Part shown: positions 2-22,818 of the stretch, piece by piece
Layout of the letters: each line of letters starts with the position of its first letter
Numbering within the stretch: the first letter of the stretch is position 1
Made by a program: the position numbers and the translations under genes
IMG/VR virus record: IMGVR_UViG_3300007640_000033
Span: 1-64,000 of that record
Reading direction: 5' to 3' (one strand)
Origin: a virus
Length of the DNA: 64,000 bases
The notes under the pieces: generated by a model
Database searches by the model: none
What the model was told of the DNA's origin: nothing
What the model saw: only the letters and a program-made list of their open reading frames with translations

Positions 2-2896
2 TTTACAATGTTCTTCTCTGGTAGTGATGCAACTTGTCAAGTCGATGTAAGTGCGGAAAACCCAAATAATATAACATTAGATTTGTTATTATTCCCAGGT
101 TCAATCGGGTTTGGAGCATCTGCAGTTGCCGATGACCCTGTTGATACTGATGTTACAATTAATTTCTCAGTTGATTTAGGAACTGTGACTGGTAGCTCAT
201 TGAGTGTTACTAGTGGTGTTACAATATATTCAGGTGCATCATCAGGATTTACTCAAATATTCTTAGATGGTGATTATAATGATTTGGACGGTTCATTAAC
301 ATTTACAAGTGTAAGTGTAAGTGAAACAGGTTCAACTTATTCATTTATATCCACAACAGGATACACATTCAATGCCACACCTACACCAACACCATCTTCT
401 ACGGTTACACCAACACCGACAATAACCGCTAGTGTTACTCCAAGTGAAACTGTAACACCAACACCTACAGTAACTTTAACTGAAACACCAACAAATACAC
501 CAACACCTACTGAGACTGTAACACCAACGGTATCTGTAACTGATACGCCTACTCAAACACCTACTGAGACTATAACTCAAACCCCTTCAGTAACACCACA
601 AAGTACAGAAACACCAACTCCTACTCCAACTGAGACTGTTACACCAACGGTGTCTGTTTCTGATACACCAACACCTACGCCAACCGAAACTGTTACACCA
701 ACTGTATCGGTAAGTGACACACCAACACCTACTCCAACCGAGACTGTTACACCAACGGTGTCTGTTTCTGATACACCAACACCTACGCCAACTGAAACTG
801 TTACACCAACTGTATCATTATCTGATACTCCAACACCTACGCCAACTGAAACTGTTACACCAACTGTATCGGTAAGTGATACTCCAACACCTACGCCAAC
901 TGAAACTGTTACACCAACTGTATCGGTAAGTGACACACCAACTCAAACACCAACTGAAACGGTAACACCAACGGTATCTGTAAGTGATACACCAACTCAA
1001 ACGCCAACTGAGACTGTTACCCCAACGCCAACTGAAACTGTCTCAGTAAGTAATACTCCAACTCCTACACCAACTGAAACGGTAACACCAACGGTATCTG
1101 TAAGTGATACTCCAACAAATACACCGACACCTACTGAAACTGTAACACCATCACTTACACCATCGTTCACACCAACGCCATCAGTAACATCAATACCGGT
1201 AACAGGTTATGGGTTTAATTTAGTTGTATTACCATATGATTTCCCACTTTCAGGAAATACACTTATTAGTAATAATAATGGTGGTGGAATAAATGAAGGT
1301 TCTACGGACCCTAATAGTTTTTCAGGCGGTACACAACCAGATGGAATTTATTGGAATTCAATTGATATTGATGGTATTGATAGAACAGATTATTTCTCAG
1401 GATTTACAGGTCAGAGTGTTACATTGACTATGAGTCAAAATGGAAGTACTGTGGTATATTCAGGTAATACTGGCCAAGGTTCGCCTAATGGACCTACGTT
1501 TTATACTTGGGCTTCTGCAGGAAGTGGTTCAGGTTTCTTCTTTAGAAGCGGAGGAACAACAGTACCACAAAATGAAGTTGTTCTTATACAGTCGGCAGCA
1601 ACTCAATGGGTTACAGGTCAAACTGTTTATATAAGTGCTGAAATTAACCCATCAGTAACACCAACTGTTACTCCATCACAAACTTATACTCCAACACCTA
1701 CACCAACTGAAACATTAACACCAACACCTTCAGTTACGTTTAATCCATTAACTTCAACACCTACACCAACTGAAACGGTAACGCCAACTGTATCTGTATC
1801 TGATAGTCCTACGCCAACACCTACTGAAACTATTACACCATCAGTAACACCATCGTTTACTCCAACACCATCAGTAACACCTAACGCTTTGTATGGGTTT
1901 AGTGCATTTACTTTCACAACAGGTGGTGTTACTAACGGAGCTAATGGACCAACATTAGTTCAGTTACAATCGGCATATAGTGCAGAATCATGGACTCAAA
2001 ATACAAGTTTCTTAAATGTTGTTACACAAGGATATCAATTATGGACTGTACCTCAGACAGGTACTTATGAATTTGAAGTTGCTGGAGCACAGGCTGGTTC
2101 AGTAACATATCCATCATCTTCAGACGGTGGACGAGGTGTTATTGTTGAAGGTAGATATTCTCTAACTCAGGGTCAAGTTGTTACCATTGCGGTTGGCCAA
2201 ACTGCCGCTAATTTCACCCAACCAGTATCAGGATATAATGGTGCAGGTGGTGGAGGTGGTACTTTCGTAGTGTTAAGTGGGACTCCATTGTTCATTGCGG
2301 GTGGAGGTGGAGGTGACGGTGCTTGGACAGGTAATGATTCGGGTACACTAAGACAAGGATTTGATGCCGTAACCAATGTAAGTGGTACTACTTCATTCTT
2401 TGGCGCACCTGCAGGTTCCGCAGGTAATGGTGGTGAATCACACACAAATGGAACTACAACCTCAACTAACACATACGATTCAGGTGCTGGTGGCGGTTTC
2501 TCAAGTGGTGGTGAACGAGGAGATGGGTCAGTAACAAGAACCCCGACTGCACAACAAGGTGGTGGTGGTAATGGATTTAACACCGACCTTATTGGTGGTG
2601 GTTACTCAACGAGTTATGGTCAAGCCTCTGACGGTGGATTCGGTGGAGGTGGTGGTGGTTCCCCTATTTGTGGTGGAGGTGGTGGTGGCTACACTGGTGG
2701 TGGTGGAGCATACCGTACACTAAACCCTGCGTCAGACGCTGGTGGTGGAGGTGGTTCTTTCATTAATAGTAGTGCAACAAATGTAGGAACAACAGATGGA
2801 CAATATAACTCAAGTTCAACATTTAATAGTGTAAGTATTACTAATTTGGGTTCATATAATACTGGTAATGGTTATGTGACAGTAACATTAATTTGA
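2..2896 (+). CDS. Mucin-like Thr/Pro-repeat fibre protein with glycine-rich C-terminal domain (5' truncated)
   Basis: The reading frame is open to the left edge, so the true start is probably outside the window; the first ATG is at 8. A beta-rich N-terminal segment (about residues 1-122) is followed by a tract of about 270 residues dominated by Thr, Pro, Ser, Val and Glu (nt 374-1196). A globular insert follows (nt 1200-1650), then a second Thr/Pro tract (nt 1651-1890). The C-terminal region (nt 1890-2893) is full of GGGGG runs and resembles the glycine-rich domain of ALK/LTK-type and phage fibre proteins. I infer an extended, probably trimeric, tail-fibre or adhesin with a stiff stalk and a Gly-rich tip. 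The Thr/Pro tracts look like O-glycosylation acceptors, and seven glycosyltransferase-like genes follow directly. A host-surface-like protein is less likely given the phage context. Specific receptor unknown. Confidence 0.75.
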   Translation, partial: FTMFFSGSDATCQVDVSAENPNNITLDLLLFPGSIGFGASAVADDPVDTDVTINFSVDLGTVTGSSLSVTSGVTIYSGASSGFTQIFLDGDYNDLDGSLTFTSVSVSETGSTYSFISTTGYTFNATPTPTPSSTVTPTPTITASVTPSETVTPTPTVTLTETPTNTPTPTETVTPTVSVTDTPTQTPTETITQTPSVTPQSTETPTPTPTETVTPTVSVSDTPTPTPTETVTPTVSVSDTPTPTPTETVTPTVSVSDTPTPTPTETVTPTVSLSDTPTPTPTETVTPTVSVSDTPTPTPTETVTPTVSVSDTPTQTPTETVTPTVSVSDTPTQTPTETVTPTPTETVSVSNTPTPTPTETVTPTVSVSDTPTNTPTPTETVTPSLTPSFTPTPSVTSIPVTGYGFNLVVLPYDFPLSGNTLISNNNGGGINEGSTDPNSFSGGTQPDGIYWNSIDIDGIDRTDYFSGFTGQSVTLTMSQNGSTVVYSGNTGQGSPNGPTFYTWASAGSGSGFFFRSGGTTVPQNEVVLIQSAATQWVTGQTVYISAEINPSVTPTVTPSQTYTPTPTPTETLTPTPSVTFNPLTSTPTPTETVTPTVSVSDSPTPTPTETITPSVTPSFTPTPSVTPNALYGFSAFTFTTGGVTNGANGPTLVQLQSAYSAESWTQNTSFLNVVTQGYQLWTVPQTGTYEFEVAGAQAGSVTYPSSSDGGRGVIVEGRYSLTQGQVVTIAVGQTAANFTQPVSGYNGAGGGGGTFVVLSGTPLFIAGGGGGDGAWTGNDSGTLRQGFDAVTNVSGTTSFFGAPAGSAGNGGESHTNGTTTSTNTYDSGAGGGFSSGGERGDGSVTRTPTAQQGGGGNGFNTDLIGGGYSTSYGQASDGGFGGGGGGSPICGGGGGGYTGGGGAYRTLNPASDAGGGGGSFINSSATNVGTTDGQYNSSSTFNSVSITNLGSYNTGNGYVTVTLI
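608..1110 (+). repeat. 54-bp in-frame tandem repeats (18-residue Thr/Pro unit)
   Basis: About nine imperfect copies of an 18-residue unit with core TETVTPTVSVSDTP are arranged in frame. Copies differ mostly at third codon positions (for example acaccaacggtgtct against acaccaactgtatcg), with a few amino-acid swaps such as SVSD to SLSD and TPTP to TQTP. This is coding repeat DNA, not a CRISPR array: there are no unique spacers. Length variation by recombination between copies is expected. Confidence 0.9.
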
Positions 2897-2915
2897 TAGA
2901 TATAATCAATATCTA
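2897..2915 (+). terminator. Weak AT hairpin after the fibre gene
   Basis: TAGATAT-AATCA-ATATCTA forms a perfect 7-bp stem with a 5-nt loop directly after the fibre stop codon, followed by AAATTTATT and not a clean T-run. It may be a weak terminator or mRNA end-stabilising hairpin. The low GC of the stem keeps confidence low. Confidence 0.3.
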
Positions 2916-2970
2916 AAATTTATTATTCAGTTTCTTTCTTATTTTGATTACTTTTTGAAAAAAGTATTTC

Positions 2971-4224
2971 ATGAAAATTTTTGTTCAAATTGCTTCGTAT
3001 AGAGACCCTGAACTAGTCAATACGATAAAAAACATGATGGAGAATGCCTCCAAACCTGAAAATCTTAGAATCGGAATTGCCAGACAGTTTAGTGAGACAG
3101 ATAAATTTGATGATTTATCCGAATTTGAAAATGATGAACGTTTTAGAATCCTAAACATACCCTATAATGAATCAAAGGGTGTTTGTTGGGCAAGACATGC
3201 CGTACAACAACTTTACAAAGGTGAAAAATACACATTGCAAATTGATTCACACATGAGGTTTGCCCCTAATTGGGATAAAGAGATGATTGGAATGATAAAG
3301 CAACTCCAAAAGAAGGGACATAAAAAACCTCTTCTTACGGGATATGTTTCTTCATTTAATCCTGAAAATGACCCAGGTGCTAGAGTACAAGAACCATGGA
3401 GAATGGTGTTTGATAGGTTTATTCCTGAAGGTGCGGTATTTTTCTTACCTGAGACTATCCCTGGTTGGAATGACATTGATTTACCAGTCCCTGCAAGATT
3501 TTACTCGGCACACTATTGTTTCACTTTAGGTGAATTTTCTAAAGAGGTTCAACACAACCCCGAATATTATTTCCATGGCGAAGAAATATCAATTGCAGCT
3601 CGTGCTTATACTCACGGTTATGATTTATTTCACCCACACAGGGTTTTAATTTGGCATGAATATACTCGTAAGGGTAGAACAAAACAATGGGATGATGACA
3701 AAGAATGGGTTGGTAAAAACCAACATTCACACCTTACTAATAGAAAACTATTTGGTATGGATGGTGAAACCCAAGAAGGTCATGATGGTCTATATGGTTT
3801 TGGTAAAGTAAGGTCTCTAAGAGATTATGAAGAATATGCTGGAATTTTATTTGAAAAAAGAGCAGTATTACAAGAAACTTTAGATAAAAAATATCCACCT
3901 TGCAAAAGTATTGAGGAACATGGTGGTGAAGAACAATGGAAGTCTAGTTTTTCACAAATATTCAAACATTGTATTGATGTGAGTTATGATAGAGTACCTG
4001 AAAAAGATTATGATTTTTGGGTAGTTGCGTTTCACGGACAAAATGATGAAACATTATTCAGAAAAGATGCTGATAAAGCCGAAATAAATAGAATGATGAA
4101 TGACCCTGATAAGTATTGTAAAATTTGGAGAGATTTCCAAACCGCAGAAAAACCTAAATATTGGGTCGTATGGCCACACTCAGAATCAAAAGGGTGGTGT
4201 GATAGAATGACAGGTAACTTATAA
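2971..4224 (+). CDS. GT60-type polypeptide N-acetylglucosaminyltransferase
   Basis: 417 residues. The N-terminus (IFVQIASYRDPEL) and the nucleotide/metal site LQIDSHMRF are hallmarks of the Pfam GlcNAc family (PF11397, CAZy GT60). Further family-typical blocks are FHGEEIS and the following GYDLFHPHRVLIWHEYTR. Characterised members transfer GlcNAc from UDP-GlcNAc to hydroxyproline of Skp1 (Dictyostelium) or to Thr of mucins (Trypanosoma cruzi), so the acceptor is a polypeptide and the enzyme acts in the host cytoplasm here. It is the first gene of a seven-gene overlapping cassette directly downstream of a Thr/Pro-rich mucin-like fibre gene, which makes that fibre the obvious candidate acceptor (inference). 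The start ATG at 2971 has an A-rich leader and no Shine-Dalgarno. The last base is shared with the next gene's ATG. Confidence 0.8.
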   Translation: MKIFVQIASYRDPELVNTIKNMMENASKPENLRIGIARQFSETDKFDDLSEFENDERFRILNIPYNESKGVCWARHAVQQLYKGEKYTLQIDSHMRFAPNWDKEMIGMIKQLQKKGHKKPLLTGYVSSFNPENDPGARVQEPWRMVFDRFIPEGAVFFLPETIPGWNDIDLPVPARFYSAHYCFTLGEFSKEVQHNPEYYFHGEEISIAARAYTHGYDLFHPHRVLIWHEYTRKGRTKQWDDDKEWVGKNQHSHLTNRKLFGMDGETQEGHDGLYGFGKVRSLRDYEEYAGILFEKRAVLQETLDKKYPPCKSIEEHGGEEQWKSSFSQIFKHCIDVSYDRVPEKDYDFWVVAFHGQNDETLFRKDADKAEINRMMNDPDKYCKIWRDFQTAEKPKYWVVWPHSESKGWCDRMTGNL

Positions 4225-4907
4225 TGAAATACTTACATCACCATTTGGGTTTAGGAGATTGTTTTACATGTAACAGTATTGTGAGACACTATTATTCTTT
4301 AGAAAATGAATTAACAATTTTTTCATATAATCATTATTTGGTGAATGTCGAGTACATGTATTCTGATTTACCTAATCTTAGAATTATTGGTGTAAACTCT
4401 GATGCCGAAGCAGAGTCATATGTTTATCAAAACAATTTACGTGATTCATATGTTCGAGTTGGGTTTGAAAAAGTGTTACAATTAAAAAATAAATGTGAAA
4501 CTTTTGATGAAACTTTTTATGTTGGTGCTAATATTCCTTATGAGAGTCGATTTGAAAAACATTATATACCAAGAAATTTAGAAAAAGAAAAACAAGTTTA
4601 TTATGAACTAAACCCTAATAATGAACCTTTTATTTTTATTCATGAGGATAAAGATAGAGGGATGAGATTAGATAGAAATCGCATAAGAACCGATTTGAAA
4701 ATAATTGAAAATAATAAAAAGTATCTTGTAGTTGACCTACTCTATTTATTAGAGAATGCACAAGAAATACATATCATGCAATCGGCTTTGAAAGACCTTG
4801 TAAACTTTTATAAGATGAACGGAAAGTGTTTTTTACACAATTATGTTAGAGGTTATGATTCTTTTGCAAATACTAAAGGACTAAATGAATTTGAAATATT
4901 AAATTAA
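4224..4907 (+). CDS. Glycosyltransferase-cassette protein with HHLGLGD N-terminus
   Basis: 227 residues. It begins with a His/Gly motif (LHHHLGLGDCFTCN) reminiscent of the nucleotide-binding start of GT-B-type or heptosyltransferase-like proteins found in viral and bacterial surface-sugar clusters. A C-terminal segment around residues 175-195 (LLYLLENAQEIHIMQSALKDL) fits the sugar-nucleotide-binding half of such enzymes. I cannot assign a CAZy family by eye. It overlaps the upstream gene by 1 nt and the next gene begins 1 nt after its stop, so it is translationally coupled within the cassette. Likely role: sugar transfer or sugar processing; substrate unknown. Confidence 0.5.
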   Translation: MKYLHHHLGLGDCFTCNSIVRHYYSLENELTIFSYNHYLVNVEYMYSDLPNLRIIGVNSDAEAESYVYQNNLRDSYVRVGFEKVLQLKNKCETFDETFYVGANIPYESRFEKHYIPRNLEKEKQVYYELNPNNEPFIFIHEDKDRGMRLDRNRIRTDLKIIENNKKYLVVDLLYLLENAQEIHIMQSALKDLVNFYKMNGKCFLHNYVRGYDSFANTKGLNEFEILN

Positions 4908-4908
4908 A

Positions 4909-5727
4909 ATGGAAAGAAAAATTAGATTATTCGATGAAAATTTGATTGGACAGGATGGACTGTCACGATATCAAAATCCTAACACAAATTGGCAAAGAGA
5001 TATTGACGATTATGATATTGGTGTATACACCGATAGAATGTGTTTTATAAAAGAAGTTGACCCTTCAAAAGTGAATGTGGCTTGGATTATCGAACCACCA
5101 ATCATTAATGGTGAAAATTACAAACACATAGTTGAACACCAAGATAAATTCAATTGGGTTTTCTCTCATATAAAATCTTTAGGTGATAAAATTAAAAATT
5201 TTGTTTGGTTAGGTCATGGAGGTACATGGTTAAGAGAAAGAGATATGGGTGTTCGTCAAAAATCAAGAAATGTAAGTATGATTTATTCTAATAAAGAATG
5301 GAATGCTGGACATAGACTAAGACACCTGATTGCTGAACAAGTAAAAGATTTGGGGGTTGCTTTACTAGGTACTGGTTCACAACAACCGTTAGATTGGAAA
5401 TTTGAGGGTCTTTCAGATTACAGATTTAGTATTGTGATGGAAAATTCAATTGAAGATGACTATTTTACTGAAAAATTAATTGATTGTTTTTTATGTGGTA
5501 CTATACCAATTTATTATGGGACAAGAAATGTAAAACATCATTTCCGAGGAGATGGAATATTTTTCTTTGAAAATATTGAAGAACTAAAAACAATTCTAAG
5601 TGAATGTACTGAAGAAAAATACAATTCTTTGATAGATTCGGTAAACCATAATTTTGAGGTTGCAAAAACTTTTATGCATCCTGAACAACAAATTACTTCA
5701 TTTTTACATAATGCGTTACCACAATAA
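4909..5727 (+). CDS. GT10 family fucosyltransferase-like glycosyltransferase
   Basis: 272 residues. The C-terminal half carries the alpha-1,3-fucosyltransferase (GT10) signature: FSIVMENSIEDDYFTEKLID followed by GTIPIYYG (about residues 175-205). This matches the family's ENS-x-YxTEK...G-x-x-P-x-YxG motif that binds GDP-fucose. The protein is shorter than eukaryotic members but close to bacterial and viral ones. The known reaction is transfer of L-fucose from GDP-fucose to GlcNAc-containing acceptors. An enzyme that uses GlcNAc acceptors fits a cassette starting with a GlcNAc-transferase (inference). Its 3' end overlaps the next gene by 17 nt. No GDP-fucose synthesis genes are in the window, so the donor would come from the host or from genes outside it. 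Confidence 0.8.
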   Translation: MERKIRLFDENLIGQDGLSRYQNPNTNWQRDIDDYDIGVYTDRMCFIKEVDPSKVNVAWIIEPPIINGENYKHIVEHQDKFNWVFSHIKSLGDKIKNFVWLGHGGTWLRERDMGVRQKSRNVSMIYSNKEWNAGHRLRHLIAEQVKDLGVALLGTGSQQPLDWKFEGLSDYRFSIVMENSIEDDYFTEKLIDCFLCGTIPIYYGTRNVKHHFRGDGIFFFENIEELKTILSECTEEKYNSLIDSVNHNFEVAKTFMHPEQQITSFLHNALPQ

Positions 5728-6475
5728 TATTGTTGTTACCGGAGCGAATAGTACTTACTTTGACACTCTCCTAACACTTATTAGTAGTATACATAAAAAT
5801 ACCTTCGATTTTATCGATGGTATTTTTGTTTATAACTTAGGGTTAAATGACGGTGAAATATCAAAACTACAGTCTCTTGAAAAAGTATTCATAAAAGAAA
5901 TACCAAAAGATATGAGGGATAAATACCCTCACATAAATGACCCAAAAAAACACTTTGACAAATTATTTTGTTTGTATGACTCAATGTCCTATGCTTGGAA
6001 TGTATTTTGGTTAGATGCGGGTGTAATGTGTTTGAAGGACATTGAACACATTTTTCATATATTAGATAGTGACCATATTTTTTGTGTTACAGATGTTCAT
6101 CTTAATAAGAACTACACACATAAAAGATGTTCCGAACTTATGAATGCAAGTGAAAGTGAATTATTAGATAAACAATTATCTTCAGGTATATTTGGTTTTA
6201 AATCAGATGGTAGATACAGAAAATTAATTGAAGATGCTTTTGAATATGGAAAAATAGGGTGTACTGTTGGGGACGAAGAAAATCACAGACATGACCAAAG
6301 TGTTCTATCAATATTAGTTTCAAGATACGATTGTCCTAGACATGATATTGACATTTATGGATATTGGACTGATTATAGTAGAAACCTAAATACCGCAAAT
6401 GAAATCGGTGCGGTTATTTTTGTCCATAGAAGAGGACATCATGATGTAAAAGATTTAAGATATGTTCAAGTTTAA
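5711..6475 (+). CDS. Putative glycosyltransferase with WLDAG motif
   Basis: 254 residues from the ATG at 5711 (MRYHNNIVVTGAN). An in-frame upstream ATG at 5654 exists, but it would lengthen the overlap with the previous gene and adds no conserved-looking sequence. The N-terminus, NIVVTGANSTYFDTLLTLISSI, looks like the start of a GT-A fold, and FWLDAGVMCLKDIE resembles the donor/metal-binding segment seen in GT8-like and DUF1647-type enzymes. Downstream it has SSGIFGFKSDG and DQSVLSIL. The WLDAG...GxFG arrangement is shared with the genes at 7172 and 8040, suggesting related enzymes. Donor and acceptor unknown. Confidence 0.6.
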   Translation: MRYHNNIVVTGANSTYFDTLLTLISSIHKNTFDFIDGIFVYNLGLNDGEISKLQSLEKVFIKEIPKDMRDKYPHINDPKKHFDKLFCLYDSMSYAWNVFWLDAGVMCLKDIEHIFHILDSDHIFCVTDVHLNKNYTHKRCSELMNASESELLDKQLSSGIFGFKSDGRYRKLIEDAFEYGKIGCTVGDEENHRHDQSVLSILVSRYDCPRHDIDIYGYWTDYSRNLNTANEIGAVIFVHRRGHHDVKDLRYVQV

Positions 6476-7175
6476 TGATGTAAAAAAAATTGTTTTAAAT
6501 TTAGATAGACGACAAGATAGATTGGAAAAATTTCAATCTGAAATGAATTATATAGGTTGGGATTTTGAAAGATTTTCAGCTATTGATACAAATTCTTATG
6601 TTGGTTGTGGATTGTCACATCAAAAAATTGCACAAGATTTTTTAGAATCTAAAGATGATTATATTTTAGTAATGGAAGATGATTTATTTATTATGCCATA
6701 CACTAAAGAACTTATTCCTAAAATCGAACAAGCTTTGTCTAATGTAGATTGGGATTTTTTTCACTTAGGACCATCTTTACACCGACCATTGCAAATGTAT
6801 AATGACATGTTGGTTGATTTATGTAATTTACCACCAAAAGATGAAAATAAACATAGAGGTATTTTTGGTACAACTGCGTTTGTTTTAAATAAAAAATCTG
6901 CAGAAATTATTGCTAACTGGGATACTGACAAATATTATTATAACAGTCATAGACAAGTTGCTATTGATGATTATTTTGATAGAGTAGTTTACAAAAATTG
7001 TGTTGCTTTTGCACCATTTAATTTGTTCACAACACAAAGACCTGATTTTTCAGATATTAATAAAACTTTCGATTCAAATCACTACGTATTATCTTATAAT
7101 TGGAATGCATATGTACCAACTAAGATACCAACTAATATGTATGACATTGGATACTGTGAAAAACTTAGAGAATGA
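6462..7175 (+). CDS. GT25 family glycosyltransferase (LPS-type galactosyltransferase fold)
   Basis: 237 residues. KIVLNLDRRQDRLEKF near the N-terminus, GCGLSHQKIAQDFL (about residues 46-60) and YILVMEDDLF (about 67-76) are the ordered signatures of glycosyltransferase family 25 (PF01755), known from lipooligosaccharide galactosyl- and glucosyltransferases and from collagen galactosyltransferases. FHLGP and GTTAFVLNKKSAEII complete the fold. The EDD is the expected metal/nucleotide-binding acid cluster. It overlaps the upstream gene by 14 nt and the next by 4 nt. Likely elongates the glycan made by the cassette; donor sugar not predictable. Confidence 0.85.
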   Translation: MFKFNDVKKIVLNLDRRQDRLEKFQSEMNYIGWDFERFSAIDTNSYVGCGLSHQKIAQDFLESKDDYILVMEDDLFIMPYTKELIPKIEQALSNVDWDFFHLGPSLHRPLQMYNDMLVDLCNLPPKDENKHRGIFGTTAFVLNKKSAEIIANWDTDKYYYNSHRQVAIDDYFDRVVYKNCVAFAPFNLFTTQRPDFSDINKTFDSNHYVLSYNWNAYVPTKIPTNMYDIGYCEKLRE

Positions 7176-8047
7176 AAATAAAATTTATAACTTGTATATA
7201 CAATAACTTGTACGGTACTGATTTAGGTGGTAGACCTAACAGACGTGACCATTATAAATGGAGTTTATTGTCCTTACTAAAAATGACCAATGCCGACTTT
7301 TTGTGTTATACGCAAGAATCTGAATTTGAAGAACTTATTGATTTTTTCTATACTCAGAATAATATAAGTCCTGATAAATTACAAATAAAAATATTTGATT
7401 TACGAACTACAAAATATAGTGAACTAATACATTCTGTAAAAGATTATAACGCGGTTACAAGAGATGATAGGTGTGTTGAAATACAATATTCTAAATTTGA
7501 TTGGTTTAGAAAGGAAGATGGTTTGTATGATTATTACTTTTGGATTGACGCTGGATTATCACACACTGGTTTAATACCAAATAAATATTTGAATACATCA
7601 TTACCAATGATGAGGTGCTTCTATGAAAGTTCTTTATTCAATAACAAATTTTTATCTAATGTTATTAATTATTGTGATGATAAATTTTTATTATTAGCCA
7701 AAGAAAATGCCAGAAATTATTGGTCAGGAACTGTTAATGAAAAATTTTATAAAAACTATTCAAAAGAGGTTCATATAATTGGAGGAATGTTTGGTGGTAA
7801 AAAGGAATTATGGGAGAAAGTTGTAAACCAATTTGATGATTACCTTTTTGAGGTTTTACCATTTGAAGGTAGATTATATCATGAAGAACACATTATGTCA
7901 CTCATGTATCAAAATCATAAAGAATGGTTTATAACACAGGAGTTTGATACATGGTGGCATCCAGAATCGGCACCTAAAGACGTACACCCTGAATACTTTG
8001 AAAAAAATAAAAGTTTCTGTAAAATATTAGAGGATTTAAATGAGTAA
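7172..8047 (+). CDS. HtrL/WlaTC-like putative glycosyltransferase
   Basis: 291 residues. IKFITCIYNNLYGTDLGGR at the start, YYFWIDAGLSH near residue 127 and IIGGMFGGKKELWEKVV near 203 fit the HtrL_YibB/WlaTC type of surface-sugar proteins, and the last motif probably forms the acceptor side. A His-rich C-terminal segment contains WWHPESAPKDVHPE. It overlaps both neighbours (4 and 8 nt). It shares the WIDAGL...GGxFGG signature with the N-terminal half of the next gene, so the two probably arose by duplication. Biochemical activity of this family is poorly defined, so 'glycosyltransferase' rests on motif and context. Confidence 0.6.
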   Translation: MKIKFITCIYNNLYGTDLGGRPNRRDHYKWSLLSLLKMTNADFLCYTQESEFEELIDFFYTQNNISPDKLQIKIFDLRTTKYSELIHSVKDYNAVTRDDRCVEIQYSKFDWFRKEDGLYDYYFWIDAGLSHTGLIPNKYLNTSLPMMRCFYESSLFNNKFLSNVINYCDDKFLLLAKENARNYWSGTVNEKFYKNYSKEVHIIGGMFGGKKELWEKVVNQFDDYLFEVLPFEGRLYHEEHIMSLMYQNHKEWFITQEFDTWWHPESAPKDVHPEYFEKNKSFCKILEDLNE

Positions 8048-9713
8048 CCTAACATTAGTCACTGGATTGTGGAATATAGGTAGAGATAATCTACAAGAAG
8101 GATGGTCCAGAAGTTTTGAGCATTATCTAAATAAGTTTTCTCAATTATTAGAGGTCGAAAATAATATGATTATTTTTGGTGACCCTGAATTAGAGGAATT
8201 TGTTTGGTCTATTAGAAAAAAAGAAAATACCGTATTCTACACAAAAAACCAAGAATGGTTTAAGAATGAATTTTACGAAAAAATACAAGAAATAAGGACA
8301 AATCCTGATTGGTATAATTTAGCTGGGTGGTTATCAGACTCTACCCAAGCTAAATTAGAGATGTATAATCCACTTGTAATGTCAAAAATGTTTTTATTAC
8401 ATGATGCTAAAATTTTAGACCCATTCAATAGTGAATTTATGTTTTGGATTGATGCTGGACTTACCAATACTGTTCATCAGGGTTATTTTACACATGATAA
8501 AGCGTTAGATAATCTTACAAAATACATTGATAAGTTTTCATTTGTTTGTTTTCCATATGAAGCAAATAATGAGATTCATGGATTCAAGTTTAATGAAATA
8601 TGTAGAATTGCCGGTAAAAAAGTCGATAGAGTTGCTCGAGGTGGTTTTTTTGGAGGTCCAAAAGACAGTATTAGTGATGCTAATGGAATTTATTATAATT
8701 TATTATCGTCCACTTTATCTGAAAACTTAATGGGTACCGAGGAGTCCATATTTTCAATAATGTGTTATAAACACTCTGATATGTTTGATTTTTTTGAAAT
8801 CGAGTCTAATGGGTTATTTGGGAAGTTTTTTGAAGACTTAAAGAATAATACTTTAGAGAAGAAATCAATGTCTCCAATACCAATGATAAATCAAGATTTA
8901 AATATGAATAATACCGCGTTGTATGTTATAACATTCAACAGTCCTAATCAATTTGAAACTTTAATAAAATCTATGATTGGTTATGATAGAGATTTTATAG
9001 ATAAACCTAAAAAGTTTTTATTAGATAATTCGAGTGATTTATCAACAACGGAAAGATACCTTGAGATATGCGAAGAATACGGTTTTGAACATATTAAGAA
9101 AGATAATTTAGGTATTTGTGGTGGTAGACAATTTATTGCTGAACACGCAGAAGAAAATGAATTCGATTTTTATTATTTCTTTGAAGATGATATGTTTTTC
9201 TATTTAGGACCTGATGATGTATGTAGAAATGGAATGCCTAGGTTTGCCGATAGTTTATATAAAAGGTCTTTGAGAATCATAAAAGATAATAATTTTGATT
9301 TTCTAAAGTTGTCTTTTAGTGAATTTTTCGGTGATAATAAGACTCAATGGGCTTGGTATAATGTACCACAAAATTTTAGAATAAATCATTGGCCTGAAAA
9401 ACCAAATTTACCAATACAAGGACAAGACCCGAATGCTCCAAAAACAAAATTTAATAAGATTGGTGGTTTTGGTAATTTAGCATATATCTCGGGTGAGATA
9501 TATTACTGTAATTGGCCTCAAGTAGTTGCTCGTCACGGTAATAAAAAAATGTTTTTAGATGTGACTTGGTCATATCCTTATGAACAAACATGGATGAGTC
9601 ATATTTTCCAAGAAACAATCAAAGGTAATATAAATCCAGGTCTATTATTATTAACTCCAACTGAGCACGACAGGTTTGAATTTTACGATAGAAAATTAAG
9701 GAAAGAAAGTTAA
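8040..9713 (+). CDS. Two-domain glycosyltransferase: HtrL/WlaTC-like N-half fused to a GT-A C-half
   Basis: 557 residues. The N-terminal half (about 1-285) begins LTLVTGLWNIGRDNL and contains MFWIDAGLTN and GGFFGGPKD, the same signature as the gene at 7172. After a linker, about residues 295-555 start again with a new Rossmann-like beginning (ALYVITFNSPNQFETLI), then KDNLGICGGRQFIAEHAEE and YYFFEDDMFFY. EDD is typical of the donor/metal site in GT2-like GT-A enzymes. I read this as two catalytic units in one chain, possibly adding two successive sugars. The next gene starts 22 nt downstream behind a TATTTAT box, so this closes the glycosyltransferase operon. Confidence 0.65.
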   Translation: MSNLTLVTGLWNIGRDNLQEGWSRSFEHYLNKFSQLLEVENNMIIFGDPELEEFVWSIRKKENTVFYTKNQEWFKNEFYEKIQEIRTNPDWYNLAGWLSDSTQAKLEMYNPLVMSKMFLLHDAKILDPFNSEFMFWIDAGLTNTVHQGYFTHDKALDNLTKYIDKFSFVCFPYEANNEIHGFKFNEICRIAGKKVDRVARGGFFGGPKDSISDANGIYYNLLSSTLSENLMGTEESIFSIMCYKHSDMFDFFEIESNGLFGKFFEDLKNNTLEKKSMSPIPMINQDLNMNNTALYVITFNSPNQFETLIKSMIGYDRDFIDKPKKFLLDNSSDLSTTERYLEICEEYGFEHIKKDNLGICGGRQFIAEHAEENEFDFYYFFEDDMFFYLGPDDVCRNGMPRFADSLYKRSLRIIKDNNFDFLKLSFSEFFGDNKTQWAWYNVPQNFRINHWPEKPNLPIQGQDPNAPKTKFNKIGGFGNLAYISGEIYYCNWPQVVARHGNKKMFLDVTWSYPYEQTWMSHIFQETIKGNINPGLLLLTPTEHDRFEFYDRKLRKES

Positions 9714-9735: not shown

Positions 9736-10116
9736 ATGGAATTTTTTATCAAGAAAAATGCAACACTTCCGATTCTTTTGATGCAAGTCGTAAAAGACGG
9801 TAGAGCTGATTATCATTCGTTTATGGATGAGTTGGAAACCGCGACAATTGTTTTCTCGATGGTTGATGAGACAACAGGAATTGCGAAAATTGCCAATAGA
9901 GCAGCATATATTGTTGAAAAGGTTTTTCTTGAACCAAATGCATCACCCGAATATTATATCTATTATAAATTCACTGATAGGGATACCAATAGAGTTGGTA
10001 GATTTAAAGGTGAGTTTATGATTACAAACGATGAAGGTAGATTGATAGTACCACTACGTGAAGAATTATACATCAACGTAATTGACAGTGTAATCTCAAC
10101 AACATATTGTTGTTAA
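9736..10116 (+). CDS. Small conserved phage protein (virion-associated?)
   Basis: 126 residues, function not recognised. The sequence (FFIKKNATLPILLMQVVKDG, ATIVFSMVDETTG, LIVPLREELYINV) looks like the small beta-sandwich proteins often annotated as hypothetical or BppU-like in phage structural regions: a linear polymer-like interface strand, a 'material' strand and a C-terminal RExL-type strand. It has its own TATTTAT box immediately upstream, the element that otherwise precedes virion operons, which favours a structural role. It stands alone: glycosyltransferases end 22 nt before it and a host-type promoter for DNA polymerase begins just after it. Confidence 0.5.
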   Translation: MEFFIKKNATLPILLMQVVKDGRADYHSFMDELETATIVFSMVDETTGIAKIANRAAYIVEKVFLEPNASPEYYIYYKFTDRDTNRVGRFKGEFMITNDEGRLIVPLREELYINVIDSVISTTYCC

Positions 10117-19635: not shown

Positions 19636-22600
19636 ATGGCAACAGCAAACAAAGTATTTGTATCTCCCGGTGTATATACATCGGAAACCGACTTGAGTTT
19701 TGTAGCACAAAGTGTAGGTGTTACTACTTTAGGTCTTGTGGGTGAAACTCAAAAAGGTCCAGCGTTCGAACCAATATTCATAACTAATTATGATGAATTC
19801 CAAACATATTTTGGTGGGACGGTACCTGATAAATTTGTTAATACTCAAATACCAAAATATGAGGCGGCATATATAGCCAAATCTTATTTACAACAATCTA
19901 ACCAATTGTTTGTAACAAGAATTTTAGGATTATCGGGTTATGATGCGGGACCATCTTGGTCTATCATGACAAAAGCGAATGTTGATAAGACAACTGTTGG
20001 ACTTACCACAAGTGGCGGTACTGACTTCACATTCACTTTCTCAGGAACAAGTGCATCCACATCTTCAATTGAATTCTTAGAAACTCTTCCAGCTGAGATT
20101 AATAGTATCCTCAATAATACATACCAAACATACTCAGGAGGTGAAAGTTCAATTGATGAACAATTGACAACTCAATTATATACAATATTGAATAGCACAA
20201 CAACAAGTGCAACTTCAATATATTATTTTGGTTCTGTAGCAACAACTGCATATACAGAACATCAAAACACCACATATACCGCGGCAACTAACGTATATGA
20301 CGTACCATCTGTTTCATATGACGCAACGGACCTTACTGATGGTACTAACGACCCATGGTATTACTCACAATTTAATAACTACTCAAATAATGATTACTCA
20401 GGTTTTTCATTCTATAGTGCTGTTAGCGATTTAGTTGACTTAGGTAGTGGTTCATACTCAGGTACAGTATCAGGTTCTGTTTACACATATTCAGGAGAAG
20501 CATTTACACAATACAATAATATGGTAATTGCAACACTTCGTTCAAGAGGTATTGCAACATATTCAAATGACACAGGACCTGTATATACAGTAACAGGTCT
20601 TAGTGATGTGCAATTAGTTACCACTGGTCAATATTCTGGTGTTACAACAAATCCATACGATACATTCCAAGTGTCAGGTGTTACTTCAGATGGTACATCA
20701 TTTAGATTTGATACATCATTGACATTATCTGATACTAATTACCTTACTAAGGTGTTTGCTAGAAGTAATTTTGATAAACCAAGAAATGAAGTACCATTGT
20801 TCATTGAAGAACAATATTACAACTTATTCAATTATGCTTATAGAATGGGTTATATTAAAGGTATTAGTAGTGACTTGATTGCATTGACAAGTGCAAGAAC
20901 AGGTGGTTCTAATACAATTGGTTGGTATTTACAACAATATCAAACACCTGAAACACCTTTTATGGTTTCAGAATTAAGAGGTAACAGAGTTTATAGACTT
21001 TTCAAATTTATCTCAATATCAGATGGTAATGCTGCAAATACTGAAGTCAAAGTTTCTATTATGAATATGGATTTCAATAATTTGACGTTTGATGTTGTTG
21101 TTAGAGATTATTTTGACAATGATTCAAATCCTGTTGTTCTTGAGAAATTCACTAATTGTACTATGGACCCAACTACTAACAGTTATATTGGTGTAAAAAT
21201 TGGTACTTCAGATGGTGAATACTCTTTGAATTCAAGATTTATTATGTTAGAAATAAGCGATGATGCACCTGCGGATGCACTTCCATGTGGATTTGAAGGT
21301 TATGTAACTAGAATGTATTCTTCTACTGCTAACCCATCACCATTCCCTGTTTATAAAACAAAATATGATTATCCTGGTGAAACAATTTATGACCCACCAT
21401 TTGGTGATACATTAGGAAACGCTAATACTACAACAAGTGCTGGTGATAATAAGAGAAGAGTGTTCTTAGGATTTTCAACACAAGTTGGATATGATAGTGA
21501 TTTCTTACAATATAAAGGTCAACAATTACCATCAGATATTTGTACTGCAACTGAAAGTACACCATGGAATGTATTGACCAAAGGTTTCCACATGGACTCA
21601 GGTGCTACTGCAGTTACAATTGCAAACGCTTACACAACAAGTGGTGAGACAGCATTCTTTGTTGGTGACTCATCATTCCAAAATAACCCACAGTCTCAAA
21701 CTAACTCATATTATTACACTTACTCAAGAAAGTTCACAGTTCTTATGTATGGTGGTTTTGATGGATGGGATATATACAGAGAAAATAGAACTAACCAAGA
21801 TAGATTTGTATTAGGTGGTTCAGGTTACTTGAAAGGTGCTTGTAGTACCGACCCAAGATACCCAAGTGCAACTGGTTCGGGTACATTCAAGAGAATTACT
21901 GTTGGTAATAATACTCAGGATTATGCAAACACCGACTACTACGCATACTTGTTGGGTATACAATCATTCAATAACCCTGAAAGTACAAATATAAATGTAT
22001 TTGCAACATCAAGTATTGATTACGTAAATAACTCTAATCTTATTGATTCGGCAATCGATATGATTGAGAATGAAAGAGCGGACTCAGTTTACATTTGTAC
22101 AACACCAGATACTGATATGTACGCACCTGTAAGTAACCCAACTGATTTTATCTACCCACAAGAAGCGGTAGATACTTTGACAGATTCAGGTATTGATTCT
22201 AACTATACTGCAACTTACTATCCTTGGATTTTGGTTAGAGATACAGTAAATAATACTCAAATCTACTTACCAGCAACAGGTGAAGTTTGTAGAAACTTAG
22301 CTCTTACAGATAATGTATCATTCCCATGGTTCGCAACCGCGGGTTACACAAGAGGTTTGGTAAATTCAGTCAAAGCTAGAAAGAAACTTACTCAAGAAGA
22401 CAGAGATGTTCTTTATGAAGGAAGAATTAACCCAATCGCAACATTCTCTGATGTTGGTACTGTAATTTGGGGTAACAAAACTCTTCAAGTTAGAGAAAGT
22501 GCTCTTGATAGATTGAACGTTAGAAGATTGTTGTTACAAACAAGAAAGTTAATTTCAGCAGTCGCTGTTAGATTGTTGTTCGAACAAAACGATGAGATTG

Positions 22601-22818
22601 TTAGACAACAGTTCTTAGATTCTGTAAACCCAATCTTAGATTCAATTAGAAGAGATAGAGGTATATATGACTTTAGAGTAACGGTTTCTTCAGACCCAGC
22701 AGATTTAGATAGAAATACATTAACAGGTAAAATCTATTTGAAACCAACTAAAGCTCTTGAATTTATTGATATTGAATTCTTGATTACTCCTGCGGGAGCT
22801 TCGTTTGAAAACATCTAA
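19636..22818 (+). CDS. Contractile tail sheath protein (gp18-like)
   Basis: 1060 residues. The N-terminus VSPGVYTSETDLSF and GLVGETQKGPAFEPIFI are classic for phage sheath proteins. The C-terminal block (about 940-1058: WGNKTLQVRESALDRLNVRRLL, then IVRQQFLDSVNPIL and DFRVTVSSDPADLDRN) is the conserved sheath polymerisation/contraction domain (PF04984). The protein is much longer than T4 gp18 (659). The extra sequence is a Ser/Thr/Tyr/Gly-rich stretch, roughly residues 120-380, between the conserved ends, probably extra surface domains on the outside of the sheath. A long, strongly expressed gene with TATTTATG box upstream; a GC-rich hairpin follows the stop. Confidence 0.95.
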   Translation: MATANKVFVSPGVYTSETDLSFVAQSVGVTTLGLVGETQKGPAFEPIFITNYDEFQTYFGGTVPDKFVNTQIPKYEAAYIAKSYLQQSNQLFVTRILGLSGYDAGPSWSIMTKANVDKTTVGLTTSGGTDFTFTFSGTSASTSSIEFLETLPAEINSILNNTYQTYSGGESSIDEQLTTQLYTILNSTTTSATSIYYFGSVATTAYTEHQNTTYTAATNVYDVPSVSYDATDLTDGTNDPWYYSQFNNYSNNDYSGFSFYSAVSDLVDLGSGSYSGTVSGSVYTYSGEAFTQYNNMVIATLRSRGIATYSNDTGPVYTVTGLSDVQLVTTGQYSGVTTNPYDTFQVSGVTSDGTSFRFDTSLTLSDTNYLTKVFARSNFDKPRNEVPLFIEEQYYNLFNYAYRMGYIKGISSDLIALTSARTGGSNTIGWYLQQYQTPETPFMVSELRGNRVYRLFKFISISDGNAANTEVKVSIMNMDFNNLTFDVVVRDYFDNDSNPVVLEKFTNCTMDPTTNSYIGVKIGTSDGEYSLNSRFIMLEISDDAPADALPCGFEGYVTRMYSSTANPSPFPVYKTKYDYPGETIYDPPFGDTLGNANTTTSAGDNKRRVFLGFSTQVGYDSDFLQYKGQQLPSDICTATESTPWNVLTKGFHMDSGATAVTIANAYTTSGETAFFVGDSSFQNNPQSQTNSYYYTYSRKFTVLMYGGFDGWDIYRENRTNQDRFVLGGSGYLKGACSTDPRYPSATGSGTFKRITVGNNTQDYANTDYYAYLLGIQSFNNPESTNINVFATSSIDYVNNSNLIDSAIDMIENERADSVYICTTPDTDMYAPVSNPTDFIYPQEAVDTLTDSGIDSNYTATYYPWILVRDTVNNTQIYLPATGEVCRNLALTDNVSFPWFATAGYTRGLVNSVKARKKLTQEDRDVLYEGRINPIATFSDVGTVIWGNKTLQVRESALDRLNVRRLLLQTRKLISAVAVRLLFEQNDEIVRQQFLDSVNPILDSIRRDRGIYDFRVTVSSDPADLDRNTLTGKIYLKPTKALEFIDIEFLITPAGASFENI

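Follow-up and report, generated by a model that had tools for sequence, protein, structure and literature searches.

What does a phage make with a row of glycosyltransferase (GT) genes placed directly behind a gene for a protein with long mucin-like tracts? The question is raised by the start of IMG/VR virus record IMGVR_UViG_3300007640_000033, a T4-like phage record of 68,179 bases, of which the first 64,000 form the window analysed here. An initial annotation of the window had described a threonine/proline (T/P)-rich virion-type protein with two mucin-like tracts, followed by seven overlapping and mostly GT-like genes, and had read the adjacent acceptor and GT set as an O-glycosylation system. 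The open reading frames (ORFs) at 2-2896 and 2971-9713 (Table 1) confirmed the gene content, and comparative and structural evidence supports the reading: the locus probably encodes a soluble mucin-type O-glycosylation cassette that acts on T/P-rich proteins. Two details needed qualification. Most neighbouring ORFs in 2971-9713 do overlap, by 1-20 bases, but those at 4907/4909 merely abut; and the description of the genes as mostly GT-like is fair by Pfam, with the GT10 and GT25 enzymes named there both over the cut-offs, but 4224-4907 matches nothing.

The first cassette gene encodes a GT60 protein

Pfam profile matches of the window ORFs were judged against curated cut-offs. The ORF at 2971-4224 matched PF11397 with an E-value of 2.6e-70 and 238 bits (cut-off 21), and its predicted GT-A fold agrees; the profile search that had been proposed as a check on the first enzyme thus bore out its assignment to GT60. 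In an alignment of 39 diverse homologues D92, H94 (of the DSH motif), D102 and E205 were invariant, as were other acidic and aromatic positions. A sequence search of the PDB did not find a GT60 relative, and a fold search was therefore carried out. The structure was predicted with a predicted local distance difference test (pLDDT) score of 92.1 and a predicted template modelling (pTM) score of 0.84, and when it was compared with solved structures using Foldseek, the 29 best matches were all polypeptide N-acetylgalactosaminyltransferases (ppGalNAc-Ts), by which mucin-type O-glycans are initiated in animals, with E-values down to 7e-11. The GT60 enzyme of Trypanosoma cruzi modifies threonine in the mucin-like peptide KPPTTTTTTTTKPP (PMC3769586), and according to reviews GT60 corresponds in protists to ppGalNAc-T but lacks the ricin-type domain (PMC8724618). 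The predicted fold and the association with T/P-rich proteins described below suggest that the phage GT60 may likewise transfer an N-acetylhexosamine (HexNAc) to threonine or serine.

GT60 genes and T/P-rich genes occur together in phages

IMG/VR was scanned with the GT60 protein, giving 497 relatives, of which the best 80 loci were kept (81 with the window); collapsing these at 97% identity left 47 distinct loci, the window included, in which T/P tracts were called by a fixed tract measure. The usual gene order was T/P protein or proteins, GT60, variable genes, a YibB-type gene, a small conserved gene and DNA polymerase. A T/P gene lay at most three genes from the cassette in 45 of the 47 distinct loci, so that the co-occurrence across related phages which had been put forward as a check was found. 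Counted by ORF, tracts were present in 73/243 near the cassette and 0/184 far from it. The two loci lacking a T/P gene were L078, whose contig starts 550 bp upstream, and L039, in whose record TPTPTP codons are present just before GT60. The T/P gene was not always in the same place, lying downstream of YibB in L017, L018 and L081, and being fused to the small post-cassette gene in L079 and L248; the association is therefore not one of fixed synteny. In the minimal pairs L267/L268 and L242, a GT60 of 37-39% identity stands beside or near a T/P protein and is the sole cassette gene recognised.

Among related phage records long enough to judge, no convincing example of the cassette without a T/P protein was found. 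The reverse case, a T/P protein without the cassette, exists in L291 and L311; in L291 the small gene and DNA polymerase come immediately after the T/P homologue (6856-9492). A converse scan found GT60 in 11/80 records picked by the pattern TPTPTPTP and in 0/35 control-pattern records, a comparison confounded by record size and pattern which suggests a link between tracts and GT60. When DNA polymerase was used to look for GT60-negative relatives, nearly all records either carried the cassette or were contigs ending inside it; only five cassette-less records were informative, and two or three of these had T/P tracts.

The pattern extends to cultured phages. Within the phage collection searched, the only isolates with a GT60 relative were Xanthomonas phage XacN1 and Stenotrophomonas phages CM1 and RAS14 (47-48% identity), and the jumbo phages XacN1 and RAS14 keep the order from GT60 to YibB. 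Both also have, a few genes from the cassette and on the other strand, the gene for a giant virion structural protein (phrog_10938; ORF325 in XacN1), which bears a T/P tract at the C-terminus or close to it; this gene comes after a baseplate-wedge-type gene in RAS14 and in GT60-less relatives. The ORF325 homologues of GAP32, CBB, MIJ3, XbC2 and Phosso, phages with no detectable GT60 relative, have no T/P tract. In 11 further records of this clade TPTPTP-coding sequence was present in 9, including all three of 270-317 kb, and a reversed control pattern was present once. The paper on XacN1 (PMC5852040) reports at least two glycoproteins in its virions and names ORF334, which is the GT60 homologue, as a candidate glycosylation enzyme.

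Bacterial GT60 neighbourhoods

The closest GT60 relatives in bacterial genome assemblies showed a T/P neighbourhood like that in phages. Over all bacterial loci, tract-bearing ORFs made up 11/321 within three genes of GT60 and 1/369 farther away (Fisher p 0.002), and tracts by the strict T/P measure were found at 11 of 54 loci. A Saprospiraceae metagenome-assembled genome (MAG) and the isolate Jiulongibacter sediminis both combine GT60 and YibB with a T/P protein that has a twin-arginine-like start, and the protein of the MAG additionally has a type IX secretion system (T9SS) sorting domain. Twin-arginine-like segments were seen in the GT60-adjacent T/P proteins at L355 8504-9649, L362 8941-9729 and L361 9155-9874. 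Such segments suggest that glycosylation may take place in the cytosol, before export of the folded protein.

Contractile machines recur in these neighbourhoods. In Azospirillum the T/P tract is located in a tail-sheath protein, and in Sphingomonas GT60 is found in a contractile-injection locus with a CIS_TMP neighbour. T/P- or proline-rich tracts were observed in contractile injection-system (CIS) proteins beside GT60 at L390 13127-15178, L392 6388-9996 and L394 6387-10004, the proteins concerned being a tail sheath and a large Rv2525c-like-domain protein next to a CIS tape-measure gene. In Burkholderiales the distance from GT60 to a VgrG gene (PF05954/PF22178) is about 4-6 kb; in L399 an Rhs gene separates the two. 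In eleven genomes (L369, L380, L385, L386, L387, L389, L393, L395, L396, L398 and L399) the C-terminus of VgrG, judged by eye, carried repeats of proline with serine or threonine in 11/11 GT60-adjacent copies, weakest in L395 and L387, as against 0/13 of the other VgrGs of the same genomes. The GT60-adjacent VgrGs are probably orthologous and hence do not represent eleven independent events, though their repeat units differ (TP, PSTPE, ETPD, EEPPPS, EPSDEQ and others).

Constant ends and an exchangeable middle

The termini of the phage cassette are constant, with GT60 first and YibB last, while the middle varies. The interval between them held 281 ORFs in 60 families, most of which occurred in few loci. 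Representatives matched GT2, GT7, GT10, GT11, GT25, PLOD-type GTs and the RXYLT1-like domain, as well as FkbM methyltransferases, carbamoyl-, acetyl- and sulfotransferases, a DegT aminotransferase and a nucleotidyltransferase, a predicted repertoire typical of a locus that builds glycans. Some middle genes in L009-L082, among them sulfotransferases, a carbamoyltransferase, the RXYLT1-like domain and PLOD-type GTs, are of kinds familiar from the glycan pathways of animals. With a 19-residue hydropathy window of at least 1.9 as the criterion, none of the 281 middle proteins had a transmembrane-like segment, nor did the GT60 and YibB proteins; the pathway therefore looks cytosolic and not lipid-linked. 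The YibB protein was modelled as two GT-type domains, for which the best matches, loosely aligned, were the two-domain glycosyltransferases LH3, ColGalT1 and LARGE1.

Alternative explanations

The T/P tracts could instead be flexible linkers without sugar, the cassette having another target and its adjacency arising from the clustering of tail and accessory genes. Several observations count against O-glycosylation of the tracts, and two of them also favour linkers. Many phages have T/P tracts but no GT60, PF11397 being absent from 69 of the 80 records picked by TPTPTPTP, and the 111-kb record L291, which has no GT60, keeps a homologue of the window T/P protein although the cassette is lost; because of these cases the tract does not require GT60, while GT60 is nearly always accompanied by a tract in these phages. 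The distant GT60s of L245, L249, L250 and L251 (26-34% identity) have no T/P gene nearby, the phage loci share descent and their p-values overstate independence, and the Foldseek TM-scores were about 0.5, with other GT-A enzymes (GlfT2, TarS) only somewhat lower. Linkers are nevertheless an unlikely explanation, since the position of the T/P gene differs among phage groups (before the cassette, after it, or as an insertion in unrelated proteins), the bacterial neighbourhood is alike and includes a within-genome VgrG control, and no tract is present in the GT60-negative homologues of XacN1 ORF325. A further possibility is that the cassette remodels the O-antigen or capsule of the host, blocking superinfection or changing serotype. 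The GT25, YibB/HtrL, FkbM-methyltransferase and acetyltransferase families, all present in the cassette, are common in lipopolysaccharide and capsule loci. However, the absence of transmembrane-like segments from the cassette proteins means that there is no flippase, polymerase or Gtr-type membrane partner, and this lack of membrane proteins makes modification of surface glycans very unlikely; GT60 and its fold neighbours, moreover, act on polypeptide, and none of the genes examined in the T4-like phage points to lysogeny.

Phage DNA is the classical substrate of phage GTs, and glycosylation of hypermodified pyrimidines has been suggested for the core GTs of moraphages (PMC12619734). In the window, the second half of 8040-9713 weakly matched the beta-glucosyl-HMC-alpha-glucosyltransferase family (E 0.008). 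Synthesis of hydroxymethylated deoxycytidine or deoxyuridine (HMdC/HMdU) needs a dCMP/dUMP hydroxymethylase of the thymidylate-synthase type. The initial annotation had seen no sign of hydroxymethyl-pyrimidine synthesis in the cassette, and in this it was right: such synthesis is not required, since 10 of 16 GT60 records, those of 295 kb and 229 kb among them, lack the thymidylate-synthase family (PF00303), though records may be fragments. With these genes missing, and with cellular GT60 genes adjoining genes for type VI secretion system (T6SS), extracellular contractile injection system (eCIS) and T9SS-type proteins, there is very little chance that DNA is the acceptor. Hydroxyproline, which the annotation had named as the acceptor in Skp1, is another candidate in place of threonine; it would be formed by a prolyl 4-hydroxylase. 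GT60 relatives do include the Skp1 hydroxyproline GlcNAc-transferase, and the tracts contain about 20% proline, but the PF13640 hydroxylase was absent from 15 of the 16 records, including those of 270-317 kb, other 2-oxoglutarate-dependent oxygenase families not having been searched. Since hydroxylases are missing, this acceptor is highly improbable.

Proposed pathway and relation to known systems

In the mucin-type pathway that we propose, the T/P-rich proteins would be made in the host cytosol, and GT60 would transfer HexNAc, most likely N-acetylglucosamine (GlcNAc) from host UDP-GlcNAc, to threonine and perhaps serine in the tracts. The middle enzymes (here GT10, GT8-like, GT25 and WIDAG proteins) and the two-domain YibB protein would then extend and cap the sugar, which in other phages may be methylated, carbamoylated, acetylated or sulfated by the middle enzymes found there. 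Built into the tail or baseplate, the glycoprotein would form a stiff, protease-resistant, sugar-coated stalk, the sugar of which could change quickly through gene exchange. The gene families, the order of the cassette, its association with T/P-rich proteins, the solubility of the enzymes by hydropathy and the predicted fold are what the data show; catalysis, sugar, linkage, acceptor residue and biological benefit are inferred from them.

The eukaryotic GT60 alpha-GlcNAc-transferases (T. cruzi TcOGNT-2, Dictyostelium Gnt2/Gnt1) share with the phage protein PF11397, the GT-A fold, Thr/Pro-rich mucin-like candidate acceptors and the lack of a ricin-type lectin domain. Unlike them, the system described here is found in phages and bacteria, is soluble, needs no prolyl hydroxylase and has its cassette adjoining the putative acceptor. 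Animal ppGalNAc-Ts (GT27) provide the closest solved folds and also have T/P-rich acceptors, whereas the phage enzyme belongs to another sequence family, has no lectin domain and is not a Golgi enzyme. In the loci for Gram-positive serine-rich repeat adhesins, too, a repeat acceptor gene lies beside a conserved initiator and variable extender GTs, and O-glycosylation is cytosolic; there, however, the initiator is GtfA/B, secretion is by a dedicated system and the acceptor is a cellular adhesin. The chlorovirus PBCV-1 differs in being a eukaryotic virus with capsid glycans and other GT families. As is proposed for the phage, it supplies its own GTs for a virion protein (PMC7019647, PMC9614988). 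Phage GTs have been proposed to decorate virion proteins in mycobacteriophages (Freeman et al. 2023, as cited in PMC12619734), where, according to that citation, the glycans are on the C-termini of capsid and tail-tube subunits, in contrast to the long T/P tracts and GT60-led cassette seen here.

The isolates, minimal pairs, VgrG genes and eCIS loci carry the pattern well past the original finding. The presence of GT60 near VgrG and eCIS genes suggests that bacteria, too, may apply this chemistry to their injection machines. We put at about even the chances that GT60 marks a general prokaryotic system of mucin-type O-glycosylation for contractile machines and exported proteins, in which initiator and T/P acceptor are co-inherited and the targets are phage tails and baseplates, T6SS VgrG spikes, eCIS sheaths and T/P proteins exported by T9SS- or Tat (twin-arginine translocation)-type routes. 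If so, the eukaryotic GT60 mucin branch would be matched in prokaryotes or viruses by systems that follow the same principle in their acceptors. To our knowledge, there are few examples of O-glycosylated phage virion proteins, and initiation of the mucin type is held to be a eukaryotic trait. In the open full-text literature, subscription papers not being covered, we found no earlier account linking GT60 to phages or to T/P tracts, or of VgrG glycosylation. Prokaryotes and their viruses probably coat these structures with mucin-like sugars, something that appears not to have been described. A cassette with an identifiable acceptor, fixed initiator and last enzyme and an exchangeable middle would offer a system for studying how the sugar coat of a viral stalk evolves, and its soluble enzymes could serve for the production of mucin-like glycopeptides in bacteria. 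Cultured XacN1 and RAS14 and the environmental isolate J. sediminis make the idea testable, and proteomics data for XacN1 virions (PXD008065) are public.

T/P-rich proteins and gene map of the record

No other ORF of the window has a comparable T/P tract, the next largest being 22 residues. A second T/P protein is encoded past the window at 65,280-67,037 of the record (L083 5280-7037), directly upstream of a tail-fibre-type gene; its 317-residue tract uses repeat units that are also present in the first protein (pairwise k-mer similarity 0.77). The tracts consist of 38% threonine, 20% proline and about 1% lysine plus arginine. A low-complexity artefact was considered and rejected, as the tracts lie in the frame of long ORFs, are Thr/Pro-rich and Lys/Arg-poor, and recur in unrelated proteins. 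The identification of the acceptor as a tail fibre is plausible and unproven for ORF 2-2896, for which family searches gave only unknown PHROGs and a glycine-rich domain, the C-terminus (about 2000-2893) resembling the ALK/LTK domain PF12810 just below the cut-off (E 2e-4). The acceptor may also be something other than a tail fibre.

Table 1. Features of the T/P-rich gene and the GT60 cassette, in window positions
Feature	Position	Strand	Remarks
T/P-rich virion-type protein (proposed main glycan acceptor)	2..2896	+	964 residues; 5' end missing at record start
Mucin-like tract 1	335..1216	+	residues 112-405 = 294 residues: 114 Thr, 59 Pro, 31 Ser; PTPTPTETVTPTVSVSDT repeats
Mucin-like tract 2	1634..1897	+	residues 545-632 = 88 residues: 28 Thr, 20 Pro, 11 Ser
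GT60 polypeptide HexNAc-transferase homologue (proposed initiator)	2971..4224	+	PF11397; DSHMRF metal/nucleotide motif
Exchangeable middle gene	4224..4907	+	no Pfam match; family in 2/81 loci
GT10, fucosyltransferase-like putative extender	4909..5727	+	PF00852, E 2.7e-10, over cut-off
GT8-like putative extender	5708..6475	+	PF01501, E 0.0016, weak, below cut-off; longer TTG-start reading from 5654
GT25 putative extender	6462..7175	+	Pfam E 6e-13, over cut-off
WIDAG-type protein	7172..8047	+	no Pfam match; commonest middle gene, 67/81 loci
YibB/HtrL-type protein, second GT-A-like domain	8040..9713	+	Pfam E 1.3e-19, over cut-off; conserved last cassette gene
Small conserved post-cassette protein	9736..10116	+	L079 and L248 homologues bear their own T/P tract

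T4-like markers in the window are a family B DNA polymerase, which adjoins the cassette, a UvsX-like recombinase, a DnaB-like helicase, ribonucleotide reductase, a baseplate wedge protein and a tail sheath. The moraphages are aquatic phages, mostly infecting Bacteroidota, with a family B polymerase (PolB) and a gp6-type baseplate; their core genes include four putative GT families, for which DNA glucosylation or virion glycosylation has been proposed (PMC12619734), and the window may belong to this lineage. The tail sheath protein, at 19636-22818, is unusually long, with 1060 residues and its sheath domains confined to the C-terminal part.

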